A model generated the notes under the pieces. It saw only the letters and a list, made by a program, of their open reading frames with translations. It made no database searches and had not been told where the DNA came from. The translations under genes were made by a program, and so were the position numbers. This document shows, in pieces, positions 43,578 through 63,520 of a stretch of 64,000 nucleotides of DNA; the first letter of the stretch is position 1; every line of letters starts with the position of its first letter. This DNA is from Kineococcus endophyticus (GTDB lineage: Bacteria > Actinomycetota > Actinomycetes > Actinomycetales > Kineococcaceae). Location of the stretch: positions 62,001 to 126,000 of the forward strand of contig NZ_JBFNQN010000013.1 in NCBI RefSeq assembly GCF_040796495.1, in the 5' to 3' direction.

Positions 43578-43614
43578 CGGACCGCTGGCGTGGGGTCGTG
43601 TCGGAGTTCCTGAC

Positions 43615-54889: not shown

Positions 54890-55783
54890 GTGCTGCGCGT
54901 GGGGCTGACCGGTGGGATCGGGGCGGGCAAGTCGACGGTGTCCCGGCTGCTGGTGCAGCTCGGTGCCGTGCTCGTCGACGCGGACGTCGTCGCCCGCGAG
55001 GTCGTCGCCGTCGGCACCCCGGGGCTGGCGGCCGTCGTCGAGGAGTTCGGCCCGGACGTGCTCGCCGCCGACGGCTCGCTGGACCGCCCCGCGCTCGGTC
55101 GGATCGTCTTCGGGGACACCGCCCGGCGGGAGGCGCTCAACGCGATCGTGCACCCGCTCGTCGCGGCCCGGCGGGCCGAGCTGGCCGCCGCCGCCCCCGA
55201 CGACGCCGTCGTCGTCGAGGACGTGCCACTGCTCGTCGAGACCGGGGCCGCCCCGACGTACCCGCTCGTCGTGGTCGTCGACGCGGACGCGGCCGAACGC
55301 GAACGGCGGCTCGTCACCGAGCGGGGGATGGAGGTCGAGGCGGCGCGGGCGCGGATCGCCGCGCAGGCGACCGACGAGGAGCGCCGCGCGGCCGCCGACG
55401 TGCTGCTGCCCAACCCCCGCCACCGGGACGGCGTCCCGGACCCGCTGCCCGGGCTCGTCGAGCGGCTGTGGCGTGAGCGGCTCGTGCCGTTCGAGGAGGG
55501 GCTCCGTGCGGGCCGGCGCGGTCCGGTGCCCGTCGGGACACCGGCCGAGGGCGACCGGCACCGCGTGCTGCACCGCCTCTCGAGGGCGGGCGGCCCGGCG
55601 TGGCTGTTCGAGGGGGACCGCTGGCCGCTGGGGGCGTGGGTGTCCGCCGAGAGCGGACTGGCGGACCTCGGGTACGTCCCCGCAGGTCAGCGGCGGTGGG
55701 ACAGCGCCGACCCGGGGTGCGCAGTGAGCGTGACGGTGCTGCCGGAGGTCATCGAGAGGCTGAGTGTCGGAGGTCCGACCTAG
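54890..55783 (+). CDS. coaE: Dephospho-CoA kinase with shortened C-terminal extension
   Basis: Last step of CoA synthesis. 297 aa. Residues 1-200 are CoaE: Walker [35 protein letters not shown] and [11 protein letters not shown]. Many actinobacterial CoaE proteins are fused to a UPF0157/GrpB nucleotidyltransferase-like domain of about 170 residues. Here only about 90 residues follow, and only the segment [23 protein letters not shown] recalls that domain, so the fusion partner looks truncated. GTG start. uvrB starts 9 nt after the stop. Confidence 0.92.
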
Positions 55784-55786
55784 TCT
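55781..55786 (+). promoter_or_regulatory. -10 box, leaderless uvrB transcript
   Basis: TAGTCT, whose first three bases are the coaE stop codon, ends 6 nt before the uvrB ATG. Confidence 0.5.
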
Positions 55787-55792
55787 TCCCCC

Positions 55793-57934
55793 ATGCGGCC
55801 GACGACAGACATCCAGCGCCGGGTGGCCCCCTTCGAGGTGGTCTCCGAGTACTCCCCTTCGGGGGACCAGCCCACCGCCATCGCCGAGCTGGCGCGACGG
55901 GTGAACGCGGGCGAGCAGGACGTCGTGCTCCTCGGCGCGACGGGCACGGGGAAGTCGGCGACGACGGCCTGGCTCATCGAGCAGGTGCAGCGCCCCACGC
56001 TCGTCATGGCCCCGAACAAGACGCTCGCCGCGCAGCTGGCCAACGAGTTCCGCGAGCTGCTGCCCAACAACGCCGTCGAGTACTTCGTCTCCTACTACGA
56101 CTACTACCAGCCCGAGGCGTACGTCCCGCAGTCGGACACCTACATCGAGAAGGACTCCTCGGTCAACGACGAGGTCGAGCGGCTGCGGCACTCCGCGACG
56201 AACTCCCTGCTGACGCGCCGCGACGTCATCGTGGTCGCGACCGTGTCGTGCATCTACGGCCTCGGCACCCCGCAGGAGTACGTCGACCGGATGGTGACGC
56301 TGAAGGTTGGCGACACGATCGAGCGGGACGAACTGCTGCGCAAGTTCATCGTCGAGCAGTACACCCGCAACGACCTGGCCTTCACCCGCGGCACCTTCCG
56401 CGTGCGGGGCGACACCGTGGAGATCATCCCGCAGTACGAGGAGCACGCGCTGCGGATCGAGTTCTTCGGCGACGAGATCGACAAGCTCTACACGCTGAAC
56501 CCGCTGACCGGGGAGGTGCTGCGCGAGGAGGAGCTGGTCTACGTCTTCCCCGCCTCGCACTACGTCGCCGGCCCCGAGCGCCTCGAGCGCGCCATCGGCA
56601 CCATCGAGGCCGAGCTGACGGAGCGGCTGGCCGAGCTGGAGCAGCAGGGCAAGCTGCTGGAGGCGCAACGGCTGCGGATGCGCACGACGTACGACATCGA
56701 GATGCTCCGCCAGGTCGGCTCGTGCTCCGGGGTCGAGAACTACTCCCGCCACCTCGACGGCCGCGGTCCCGGGTCGGCGTCGAACACGCTGCTGGACTAC
56801 TTCCCCGAGGACTTCCTCCTCGTCATCGACGAGTCCCACGTGACGGTGCCCCAGATCGGGGCGATGTACGAGGGCGACATGTCCCGCAAGCGGACCCTGG
56901 TGGACTTCGGGTTCCGCCTGCCCAGCGCCATGGACAACCGCCCCCTGCGCTGGGAGGAGTTCCTCGAGCGCACGGGCCAGACGGTCTACCTGTCGGCGAC
57001 GCCGGGGGACTACGAGCTCTCCCGCGGCAAGGGGGTCGTGGAGCAGATCATCCGCCCGACGGGGCTGGTCGACCCCGAGGTCGTCGTGAAGCCGACGAAG
57101 GGGCAGATCGACGACCTCCTGCACGAGATCTCGCTGCGGACGGCGAAGGACGAGCGCATCCTCGTCACGACGCTGACGAAGAAGATGGCCGAGGACCTCA
57201 CGGACTACTTCCTCGAGCAGGGCGTCCGCGTGCGGTACCTGCACTCCGAGGTCGACACCCTGCGTCGCGTGGAACTCCTGCGCGAGCTGCGGCAGGGCGA
57301 GTACGACGTCCTCGTCGGCATCAACCTGCTGCGCGAGGGCCTGGACCTGCCGGAGGTCTCGCTCGTCGCGATCCTCGACGCCGACAAGGAGGGCTTCCTG
57401 CGCTCGTCGAAGTCGCTCATCCAGACGATCGGGCGCGCGGCCCGCAACGTCTCCGGTCAGGTGCACATGTACGCCGACCGCATCACGCCGTCGATGGCCG
57501 AGGCGATCGAGGAGACGAACCGCCGCCGCGAGAAGCAGATCGCCTACAACACCGAGCGCGGTGTGGACCCGATGCCGCTGCGCAAGAAGATCGCCGACAT
57601 CACCGACCTCATCGCCCGCGAGGACGCCGACACCGCCGAACTCCTCGCGGCGGCCAAGGGCGGGGGCCAGGGCGGCAGCGGCCGGTCGCAGTCGCGCGGC
57701 AAGGCCCCGACGCCGGGCAAGGGCGCGAAGGGCAAGAACGTCGGCCGCGAGGTGGGGCCCGAGCCGAAGGCGGGGATGCCCCAGGCCGACCTCGCCGACC
57801 TCATCCAGGAGCTGACCGACCAGATGCACTCGGCCGCCGCCGAGCTGCAGTTCGAACTGGCGGCGCGGCTGCGCGACGAGGTCGGCGACCTCAAGAAGGA
57901 GCTGCGGGGGATGCGCGCGGCGCAGGGGGCCTGA
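55793..57934 (+). CDS. uvrB: Excinuclease ABC subunit B
   Basis: Damage-verification helicase of nucleotide excision repair. 713 aa. Walker [12 protein letters not shown] at 48-58, the beta-hairpin [13 protein letters not shown] near 95-107, [22 protein letters not shown] and QTIGRAARN helicase motifs. A Gly/Lys-rich linker (about 620-660) leads to the C-terminal UVR domain (about 660-700) that binds UvrC. ATG start 6 nt after a -10 box. Confidence 0.97.
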
Positions 57935-57952: not shown

Positions 57953-58375
57953 TCACCCGGCGGGCTGCTGCGACGTCAGGTGCAGCAGCAGTCCGCCGGG
58001 CCCTGCCGACCGGCCTCCGGACCCGCGGGTGCGGACCAGGGCGAAGCGGCGGGGCCCCGTCCGCCCGTGCAGCACGAAGACCGTCCTGCGCTCGTCCCGG
58101 TCCTCCAGCTCCCACCAGCCGGTGTCCGCGATGGTCTTCGTGGCGTCCTCGTAGGTGAGGTGGTCCAGGTCGTGGTCGGGGACCGCGATCGCCAGCCGGT
58201 TGCGGGCGGCCGCGGTCGGCAGGCCGTTGGGCAGGGCCCAGGACCGCAGCACGCCGTCCTCCGCCAACCGCAGGTCGTGGTGCGGCCGCGGGAGGCGGTG
58301 GTCGTGCAGGACGAACGGGGGCCGGCCGTCCCCTCCTGACCGGCCGGCGCCCGGCGCCTCGACCCGACGCGTCAG
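57953..58375 (-). CDS. Stand-alone LigD-type 3'-phosphoesterase-like protein
   Basis: 140 aa if started at CTG 58375. FVLHDHRLPRPHHDLRL contains the metal and phosphate-binding His/Asp/Arg pattern of the LigD phosphoesterase domain, followed by DGVLRSWALPNGLP, VPDHDLDH and the C-terminal RRFALVRT. The IPEGxYGAG middle segment of the classic domain is missing. The only conventional start (TTG 58267) would remove the catalytic segment, and CTG 58375 overlaps the marR stop as CTGA. Possibly trims 3'-phosphates at DNA breaks. Confidence 0.7.
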   Translation of the reverse strand: MTRRVEAPGAGRSGGDGRPPFVLHDHRLPRPHHDLRLAEDGVLRSWALPNGLPTAAARNRLAIAVPDHDLDHLTYEDATKTIADTGWWELEDRDERRTVFVLHGRTGPRRFALVRTRGSGGRSAGPGGLLLHLTSQQPAG

Positions 58376-58965
58376 GAGTGCCCGGGAGCCGGCGGGACGG
58401 GGGAGACGCTGCCGGTCTCCTGCAGGTGCTCCAGCAGGACCTCGCTGATGGACCGCAGCTGCTGCAGCTGGTCGTCGGTCAGCCGGTCGAACAGCGTGGT
58501 GCGCACCGTCTCCACGTGCCCGGGGGCCGCAGCCGCCAGGGCCTCCAGCCCCTTGTCCGTCAGCACGGCGAGGTAGCCGCGACCGTCCGTCGGGCAGGCC
58601 TCCCGGCGGATCCAGCCGCGCTCCTCCATCCGGGCCACCGCGTGCGAGACGCGGCTGCGGGAGGAGAGGGAGGACTCGGCCAGCTCGCTCATCCGCAGGG
58701 ACCGGTCAGGGGCCTCGGACAGGCGCACGAGCATCTCGTAGTACGTCAGGAGGATCCCGGAGTCCCGTTGCAGCTGCCGGTCGAAGCGGTCGAGGAGCAA
58801 CTGCGTCGCGGACAGGAACGTCCGCCAGGTCACCTGCTCGTCGTCGTCCAGCCAGCGCGTCGGGCCGGTCGCGGCGGACTCGGCCACAGCGTCGGCGGCG
58901 GGGACGCCGGCGACCGCGAGGTGGTGGGGGTGGGCGTCCTGCAGGGCGGAGACGGGTGGAGCCAT
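58372..58965 (-). CDS. MarR-family transcriptional regulator
   Basis: 197 aa. An N-terminal extension of about 40 residues precedes a winged-helix MarR domain: TYYEMLVRLSEAPDRSLRMSELA, SSLSSRSRVSHAVARMEERGWI (recognition helix) and DGRGYLAVLTDKG (wing). It is encoded on the minus strand between uvrB and uvrA, leading into the phosphoesterase gene, so it may regulate that gene or itself. ATG start with a -10 box 6 nt upstream. Confidence 0.9.
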   Translation of the reverse strand: MAPPVSALQDAHPHHLAVAGVPAADAVAESAATGPTRWLDDDEQVTWRTFLSATQLLLDRFDRQLQRDSGILLTYYEMLVRLSEAPDRSLRMSELAESSLSSRSRVSHAVARMEERGWIRREACPTDGRGYLAVLTDKGLEALAAAAPGHVETVRTTLFDRLTDDQLQQLRSISEVLLEHLQETGSVSPVPPAPGHS

Positions 58966-58971
58966 GTACTG

Positions 58972-58977
58972 AGGGTA
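58972..58977 (-). promoter_or_regulatory. -10 box, leaderless marR transcript
   Basis: TACCCT on the minus strand ends 6 nt before the ATG at 58965. Confidence 0.5.
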
Positions 58978-59087
58978 AGCAGAACGCTCAACTACCTGCG
59001 TCCGCCGATCGGTGGACGCCCACCCGTGCAGTCCTCACGGGTGGCGTCCCCGGACCGCGCGCGGAGGCTCGTGTCGGAGGTGGCGCC

Positions 59088-59093
59088 TAGGGT
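59088..59093 (+). promoter_or_regulatory. -10 box, leaderless uvrA transcript
   Basis: TAGGGT ends 6 nt before the uvrA GTG at 59100. Confidence 0.5.
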
Positions 59094-59099
59094 TGCCCC

Positions 59100-62177
<3,078 letters not shown>

Positions 62178-62195: not shown

Positions 62196-63362
62196 TCAGA
62201 ACGGGGCGACGAGCTTGACCACCGACTCGACCACGACCCGGCTCGCCGAGCCGTCCCCGTAGGGGCTCGGCAGGGTCTGCAGCCGGGCTGGGTCGTCGGC
62301 CAGGGCGCGGCGGACGGCGGCGGCGAGCCGCAGTCCGCCGGGCACGAGAGTGGTGAAGGTGCCCAGGACCTCGGGACGCTCGGTCGCGCGGCGCACGAGC
62401 AGGGCCGGGCGCTTGAGGACGGAGGCCTCCTCGGCCGCGCCCTCCGCGTCCGAGACGAGCACGGCCGCTCGGTGCTGGACGACCGTCCTCTGCACGGGGT
62501 CCAGCGACCCCAGGACCGTGCACCGGTCCAGCAGGCCGCCGAACCCCAGCTCCCGCCACCGGTCCGCCGTCGACGGGCCGGCCGGGACGACCACCGGCAA
62601 CCCGGCCTCGACGAGCGTCGCGACCTCCCCCAGGAGCTGGGCGAGCAGCTCGGGCTGTCCGGTGTGGTCGGGCCGGTCCACCGTGAGCAGCACGTACCCG
62701 GCCGGCAGCCGCAGCTCGGCGGCCAGGGCGTCCTGGGTGGCGTCGTCGGGCAGCAACCGGTGCAGCGACTCCACGACGGGGTCACCCGTGAGCAGGATCC
62801 GCTCGTCGGCGACGCCCTCGGCGCGCAGGGCGGCCACGGCCGCGGCGGAGGGGGCGCAGCACAGGTCGGCCAGGCCGTCCACGACCCGGCGGTGGTGCTC
62901 CTCGGGCTGCCGCCGGTCGTGGCTGCGCAGCCCCGCGCCGAGGTGCACGAGGTGCAGCCCCGCCGCGTTGGCGGCCAGCGCGCCCGCCAGGGCCGCGGTG
63001 CCGCCGCCGTGGACGAGCACCGCCGACGGCCGGTGCCCGGCGAGGACGTCGGCGAGCCCGGCCACGAGGGCGCCGAGCACCCGGCCCGACCCTCCGGAGG
63101 GCACCTCCACGTCCTCGCAGGCGCCGTCGGTCGCGGGTCGGGGCAGCCCGGTGGCCTCGCCGGTCCGCACCAGCACCCCGGCGGCCCCGAGCCGCTGCAC
63201 CACCTCCGCCGTGCGCGTCGCGTCGAGGCCGTCGCCCACGACGACCGCGACCGGTCCGGGGGCGCCGTCCCCGACGGGGAAGCCCAGGGGCCGGCGCAGC
63301 ACCCGCGGACGGTCGGGCGCCGCCGGCGCCGGGACGGACGGGCTGAGCGTCGGGGAGACCAC
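62196..63362 (-). CDS. UDP-GlcNAc 2-epimerase-like protein with altered active site
   Basis: 388 aa with the GT-B fold of WecB/MnaA: LVHGGGTAALAGALAAN, LGAGLRSHDRRQPEEHHRRVVDGLADL and ILLTGDPVVESL align with family motifs. True epimerases have HGDT and VEAGLR with catalytic Asp and Glu. Here these read HGGGT and LGAGLR, so both acids are lost, though PEE remains. It is unlikely to be a standard epimerase; it may bind nucleotide sugars or be a diverged paralogue. It is convergent with uvrA (18 nt) and divergent from uvrC. Confidence 0.78.
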   Translation of the reverse strand: MVSPTLSPSVPAPAAPDRPRVLRRPLGFPVGDGAPGPVAVVVGDGLDATRTAEVVQRLGAAGVLVRTGEATGLPRPATDGACEDVEVPSGGSGRVLGALVAGLADVLAGHRPSAVLVHGGGTAALAGALAANAAGLHLVHLGAGLRSHDRRQPEEHHRRVVDGLADLCCAPSAAAVAALRAEGVADERILLTGDPVVESLHRLLPDDATQDALAAELRLPAGYVLLTVDRPDHTGQPELLAQLLGEVATLVEAGLPVVVPAGPSTADRWRELGFGGLLDRCTVLGSLDPVQRTVVQHRAAVLVSDAEGAAEEASVLKRPALLVRRATERPEVLGTFTTLVPGGLRLAAAVRRALADDPARLQTLPSPYGDGSASRVVVESVVKLVAPF

Positions 63363-63520
63363 ACGCGGACGCTAGGACGGCACCGGCCCCCGGGCAGGCC
63401 GCGCGTGGGCCGATCGGGGCCGTGTTCACCCGCACCCCGCACGACCTCTCGCACACGGTGACCGGGCGGCAGCGGTGCGTCGCGGCACGGGGGTGACGGG
63501 CTCGTGTCGGACCGGCGACC

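Follow-up and report, generated by a model that had tools for sequence, protein, structure and literature searches.

The window analysed here, a stretch of DNA of 64,000 nucleotides from an actinomycete genome of 5.04 Mb in 46 contigs (G000), carries between uvrB and uvrA the reading frame of a stand-alone phosphoesterase (PE) domain of the LigD type, which belongs to a group of short, lidless PEs with an altered active site. We propose that such a protein probably acts as a stand-alone 3'-end enzyme of split NHEJ and that the copy in the window is poorly expressed or has recently been inactivated.

A LigD-type phosphoesterase in the uvrB-uvrA interval

The genes uvrB (55793..57934; NCBIfam PRK05298, 1068.7 bits) and uvrA (59100..62177; NCBIfam PRK00349, 1580.7 bits), both on the plus strand, enclose two frames on the minus strand. 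Divergent from uvrA lies a gene for a MarR-family regulator of 197 aa (58372..58965; Pfam MarR_2, 50.8 bits), which resides in this interval across the genus, and it is followed by the conserved reading frame of the lidless PE domain (57953..58339). The latter is convergent with uvrB, with 18 nt between the two stops; its stop lies at 57953 and its residues are numbered from the codon at 58339-58337 (q1). The Pfam and NCBIfam profile matches thus confirm the arrangement described in the initial annotation, namely a minus-strand MarR gene and a stand-alone LigD-type PE between uvrB and uvrA. On the other side of uvrA, a gene of the Epimerase_2 family (UDP-GlcNAc 2-epimerase type; 62196-63362, minus strand) separates it from a frame at 63504, which, judged by eye, resembles the start of uvrC.

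The PE matches the Pfam family LigD_N (PF13298) with 60.8 bits at a cut-off of 31.1 and over the whole profile (1-107), which places it in the LigD PE superfamily, and the 5.04 Mb genome has no other match to this family. Against TIGR02777, the model for the classic LigD PE, it reaches only 60.3 bits as compared to the equivalog-domain score of 144 bits. A PDB search with a profile of 41 relatives retrieved five solved PEs, 3p4h (1.1e-26), 3p43, 3n9b, 2lj6 and 5dmp, whereas a viral fold library contained no match at E <= 0.001. The AlphaFold2 model (pLDDT 91.8) has eight strands, as does the beta-barrel of the PE fold, and could be superimposed with VIA-align on 3p43 with a Z-score of 18.0 (rmsd 1.5 over 114 residues), on 3p4h with 17.6 and on 3n9b with 16.7. 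Since the profile matches agree with this model, for which the next unrelated fold has a Z-score of only 3.8, we consider it beyond reasonable doubt that the predicted fold is that of a PE.

A scan of public genomes yielded 137 PE relatives, and the 80 best of them were retained. Adding the copies in our own genome set gave 92 loci with more than 55% identity, which contain 84 unique sequences and are biased towards close relatives. The 137 homologous loci, and the dozens of positions that are invariant in the 84 unique sequences, argue against a reading frame that is open by chance.

The window copy lacks a normal start codon

The start of the PE in the list of open reading frames, a TTG at 58267, falls inside the domain, and between the MarR stop and 58268 there is no ATG, GTG or TTG in any frame. 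The gene as read is therefore truncated or start-less, and a frameshift from an upstream start was rejected on the same ground. One of these three codons is present within q -20 to 8 in 83 of the 84 unique sequences, the sole exception being the window copy. At the start site, the relative G001 reads aggagGTGacg as compared to aggagGGGacg in the window, which has one base fewer between this site and the domain. The expected start site is occupied by a hairpin, CGGGCGCCGGCCG-N12-CGGCCGGCCCCCG, with arms of 13 nt (inverted repeat I7; 58316..58353, minus strand), and four relatives that have no PE (G005, G006, G007 and G008) carry a similar hairpin between MarR and uvrB. It may function as a terminator, albeit one with no T-tract; its predicted RNA structure was not better than that of shuffled sequences in the window (z 1.44) and weakly better in two relatives. 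G006, which is the nearest relative by UvrB (97%), has CCCCCGTTCGT after the hairpin, as does the window, and then diverges. As CCCCCGTTCGT matches the F-V codons, it is possible that it is a PE relic in G006, but it is too short to choose between a loss there and a gain here.

Apart from its start, the window copy looks like a gene. Its frame is intact and the GC content by codon position is gene-like (0.78/0.55/0.95). The substitution E26A and N38 are unique among the 84 sequences, but the number of changes at conserved columns is not out of line. Relaxed selection was rejected as an explanation, as pairwise dN/dS values of the window copy are no higher than those between other members, which is a weak test at such GC content. 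Nevertheless, the missing normal start codon suggests that the window copy may be switched off, and on balance we regard it as largely or wholly inactive. An assembly error in the start region may also be the cause of the missing start codon.

One might speculate that the window copy is instead a working gene that is translated from a CTG codon (58373..58375, minus strand) in coupling with MarR, so that in this species MarR and PE would be a genuine two-gene unit. This CTG is a near-cognate start in frame with and upstream of the whole domain, it overlaps the MarR stop (CTGA), and the product would have 140 aa. The frame is intact throughout the domain and the catalytic residues are kept; furthermore, the PE of G001 also follows MarR, and there it has a normal GTG start. 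However, CTG is a poor start, no Shine-Dalgarno sequence was seen before CTG 58375, a GC-rich hairpin lies between the CTG and the domain, in G001 the CTGA of MarR and the PE are in different frames, and the pair is found in just two of the 11 genomes of the genus. We therefore view translation from the CTG as possible but doubtful. A low-level product might still be made from the CTG, or the gene might have been inactivated recently, and we lean towards the latter.

A lidless clade with two changed active-site residues

A tree of the 84 short PEs and 18 classic LigD PE domains from the same order was built from 126 columns and left many inner forks unresolved. All 84 fall on one side of a branch with a length of 2.6 and a support of 100/100. 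Judged by their sequences, the short PEs are a distinct monophyletic actinomycete clade within the LigD PE superfamily. The frame in the Kineosporia babensis genome (L068:5995-6582) runs on into a C-terminal extension (GDKVSWNTPQGTTHGVV...), which is perhaps a fused second domain.

The alignment of the short PEs to the PE of P. aeruginosa, whose residues were numbered with the help of the motifs given in PMC8656161, is ungapped through the active-site region with an offset of 28. The metal triad His42, His48 and Asp50 has its equivalents in H14 (83/84), H20 (84/84) and D22 (84/84), and the phosphate ligands Arg52 and His84 in R24 and H56 (84/84 each); all five are present in the window copy. 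The equivalents of Ser61 and Arg76 are kept in 83-84 of the 84 sequences. Two positions differ throughout: Gln40 is replaced by His (H12) and the sixth catalytic residue, Tyr88, also by His (H60) in every one of the 84 short PEs, whereas all 18 sampled classic domains have Gln and Tyr, respectively. In addition, most short PEs have Pro or Asp at the position of Glu82, the sampled ones have no N-terminal extension of the classic type, and the nine-residue lid IPxGEYGAG, which is present in 18/18 classic domains, is missing from the 11 short sequences inspected and from the profile of 41. The initial annotation had noted that the catalytic His, Asp and Arg are retained and that the YGAG segment is absent, which holds true in alignments with solved and classic PEs. 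Its further suggestion of a separate sub-family is borne out by the split between the 84 short and the 18 classic domains and by these active-site differences.

What do these changes mean for the activity? According to the accessible part of PMC8656161, Glu82 and N-terminal residues of the P. aeruginosa PE act solely in the phosphatase step, and its active site lies beneath a flexible loop; in our own reading of that report, this loop corresponds to the lid segment that is missing here. Based on these residue roles and on the loss of the lid, the N-terminal extension and Glu82, we infer that the short PEs are resecting phosphodiesterases with an open cleft and a weak phosphatase activity. As in LigD PE, His14, His20 and Asp22 would bind a metal of the Mn(II) type and Arg24 and His56 would hold the scissile phosphate, while the clade-specific His60 and His12 would take the places of Tyr88 and Gln40 of P. 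aeruginosa. Such an enzyme could be expected to act on open or frayed ends, from which it would resect 3' flaps or 3'-ribonucleotides, and to have weak or no 3'-phosphatase activity.

The His/His pair could also signal a lost or different chemistry, because mutation of Tyr88 inactivates the P. aeruginosa PE and the Q40A substitution has a severe effect, as stated in the same part of PMC8656161. The short clade might thus consist of non-catalytic binding or scaffold proteins, in which the esterase activity ceased once Gln40, Tyr88 and the lid were lost, and the histidines hold a structural metal. The essential role of Tyr88 in P. aeruginosa LigD would fit this, as would the strict conservation of six catalytic residues, Tyr included, across all PEs aligned in the available portion of PMC4797286. 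We consider it unlikely, since the metal triad, the Arg and the equivalents of His84, Ser61 and Arg76 are kept in 83-84 of the 84 sequences, which is unexpected for a dead enzyme. The conservation of the His/His pair in 84/84 sequences likewise argues for its use. Conversely, His12, His60 and the open cleft might give rise to a general-acid site or a second metal site and with it to a functionally new PE, which would have a new substrate (e.g. RNA-containing or blocked 3' ends in a context other than NHEJ) and clean up 3' ends as a free-standing protein across the Actinomycetes; we regard this as quite unlikely. As the active site of LigD PE is largely retained in the clade, with two residues changed and the lid dropped, the roles of Tyr88 and of the lid become testable with these proteins.

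Co-occurrence with Ku and a split NHEJ system

A profile of the short PEs separates cleanly in a class sample of 394 genomes, with 24 genomes at or above 190 bits and no other listed match above 104.5 bits; together with G079, in which the gene is split over two contigs, 25 of the 394 genomes have a short PE. Ku is present in 25/25 of these genomes and in 268/369 genomes without a short PE (Fisher one-sided 5e-4, with kinship ignored). This value overstates the evidence, because the 25 genomes fall into 11 genera and 8 families and 10 of them into one genus, and the link to Ku may stem from shared ancestry. Within the genus of the window, four of the 11 genomes have the PE and seven have Ku, among them all four PE carriers. 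A sample of 396 genomes from the phylum, searched with a strict threshold, contained two members, both in the order of the window, and none outside the class.

Eleven of the 25 genomes also encode a classic PE (G065, G097, G114, G130, G165, G185, G195, G224, G242, G267 and G283) and 14 do not, indicating that the short PE is not simply a replacement of the classic one. A mutual exclusion of the two types, suggested by a sample of 59 genomes, proved false in the 394. An origin from a mobile element was discarded, as there was no relative on viral contigs and no phage match, and all plasmid matches had less than 60% identity, with most of those listed annotated as LigD or DNA ligase.

The genome of the window has split NHEJ genes on another contig (C2, L150:2828-13810), where Pol (TIGR02778) and Lig (TIGR02779), both above cut-off, are 3 nt apart and Ku (TIGR02772) is located about 8 kb from them; a PE is absent from this locus. 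With Ku and separate Pol and Lig proteins and no other PE in the genome, split NHEJ would be the likely partner of the short PE, which in our reading has no part in excision repair. This reading fits the over-representation of nonconventional NHEJ in Actinobacteria that is reported, for the portion available, in PMC7719229, a survey of NHEJ domains with P. aeruginosa queries. Where NHEJ consists of split Ku, Pol and Lig, the short PE may provide the 3'-end healing that is otherwise missing.

The MarR gene belongs with uvrA

An orthologue of the MarR regulator (at least 71% local identity) is encoded beside uvrB in 11/11 genomes of the genus and between uvrB and uvrA in 10/11; the contig of G004 shows MarR and uvrB only. 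The PE shares this interval in G000 and G001 alone, while G002 and G009 carry it elsewhere. Among the best 80 of the 137 PE loci, a tblastn search with MarR gave one match, about 4.8 kb from the PE, and none adjacent to it. Clustering of the neighbours at the same 80 loci found no family in more than 16, and the top cluster is largely antisense over the PE, so that a conserved operon partner was rejected. MarR as a dedicated PE regulator was rejected too, given the nine genus genomes with MarR and no PE there and the lack of an adjacent MarR at the sampled PE loci. The claim of the initial annotation that the PE has its own regulator is not supported: the pairing lacks conservation across species, which that annotation had itself named as counting against it, and what is conserved is the enzyme family.

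Outside the genus, MarR lies upstream of uvrA in the single genome of the sister genus (G011) and at none of the other 18 uvrA loci examined (30 of 35 matches covered). This pattern suggests that MarR belongs with uvrA and not with the PE; in our reading, its adjacency to the PE is accidental. The divergent genes MarR and uvrA are separated by 134 nt (58965-59100), a layout that recurs through the genus. The gap contains a near-perfect 22-bp palindrome (58998..59019; inverted repeat I5), a candidate MarR operator, which has a similar counterpart in several of the 10 aligned relatives, G009 and G002 not among them. MarR may control uvrA via this palindrome and thereby add a lineage-specific layer to excision repair.

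We also scanned the window with a consensus of the RecA-NDp/PafBC type, an actinobacterial promoter motif associated with DNA damage, and the sites found are candidates. Such motifs are located on the plus strand 29 nt before uvrA (59071..59093) and 29 nt before uvrB (55764-55786), with a third match at 43598, and none was found on the minus strand of the window or before MarR-PE. In the part of PMC8223512 that is accessible, uvrA and uvrC are named in both the PafBC and the SOS regulons. The special link to UV damage made in the initial annotation is not supported, since the damage-type motif precedes uvrB and uvrA and not MarR-PE, and the PE co-occurs with Ku. That the PE is a damage-inducible 3'-end enzyme of an excision-repair cluster with its own MarR regulator, as its LigD-PE homology and its location between uvrB and uvrA had suggested, is highly improbable in view of the missing motif, the Ku co-occurrence, the MarR genes without a PE, the lack of a recurring neighbour and, in almost every genome examined, a location of the PE outside the uvr interval. 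Adjacency to uvrA and uvrB is, as this window teaches, no evidence for a role in excision repair.

Comparison with known phosphoesterases

Our literature search, which had most subscription papers outside its reach, found no description of a lidless His/His PE clade, and the accessible parts of PMC5663958 and PMC10140301 make no mention of one. The short PEs are a widespread actinobacterial branch of the known LigD PE family, apparently one as yet uncharacterised. The window PE resembles the P. aeruginosa LigD PE (3n9b; PF13298) in its predicted fold (Z-score 16.7) and in the equivalents of the metal triad, Arg52, His84, Ser61 and Arg76. It differs in that it is stand-alone, has neither the N-terminal extension nor the lid and carries the changes Q40H and Y88H, to which Pro or Asp in place of E82 is added in most of the clade. 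With the compact archaeal PEs from Ca. Korarchaeum (3p4h) and M. barkeri (3p43), which are its best sequence and fold matches, it shares the small size, but those proteins retain the Tyr and the IPxGxYGAG segment. The PE of the split NHEJ system of Methanocella paludicola (5dmp) is likewise a separate protein and serves Ku, Pol and Lig, according to the available text of PMC4797286, a role that the window PE might share. Whereas the M. paludicola PE is encoded in an operon with Pol and Lig, the window PE is located on a different contig from these genes and is devoid of the lid and the Tyr.
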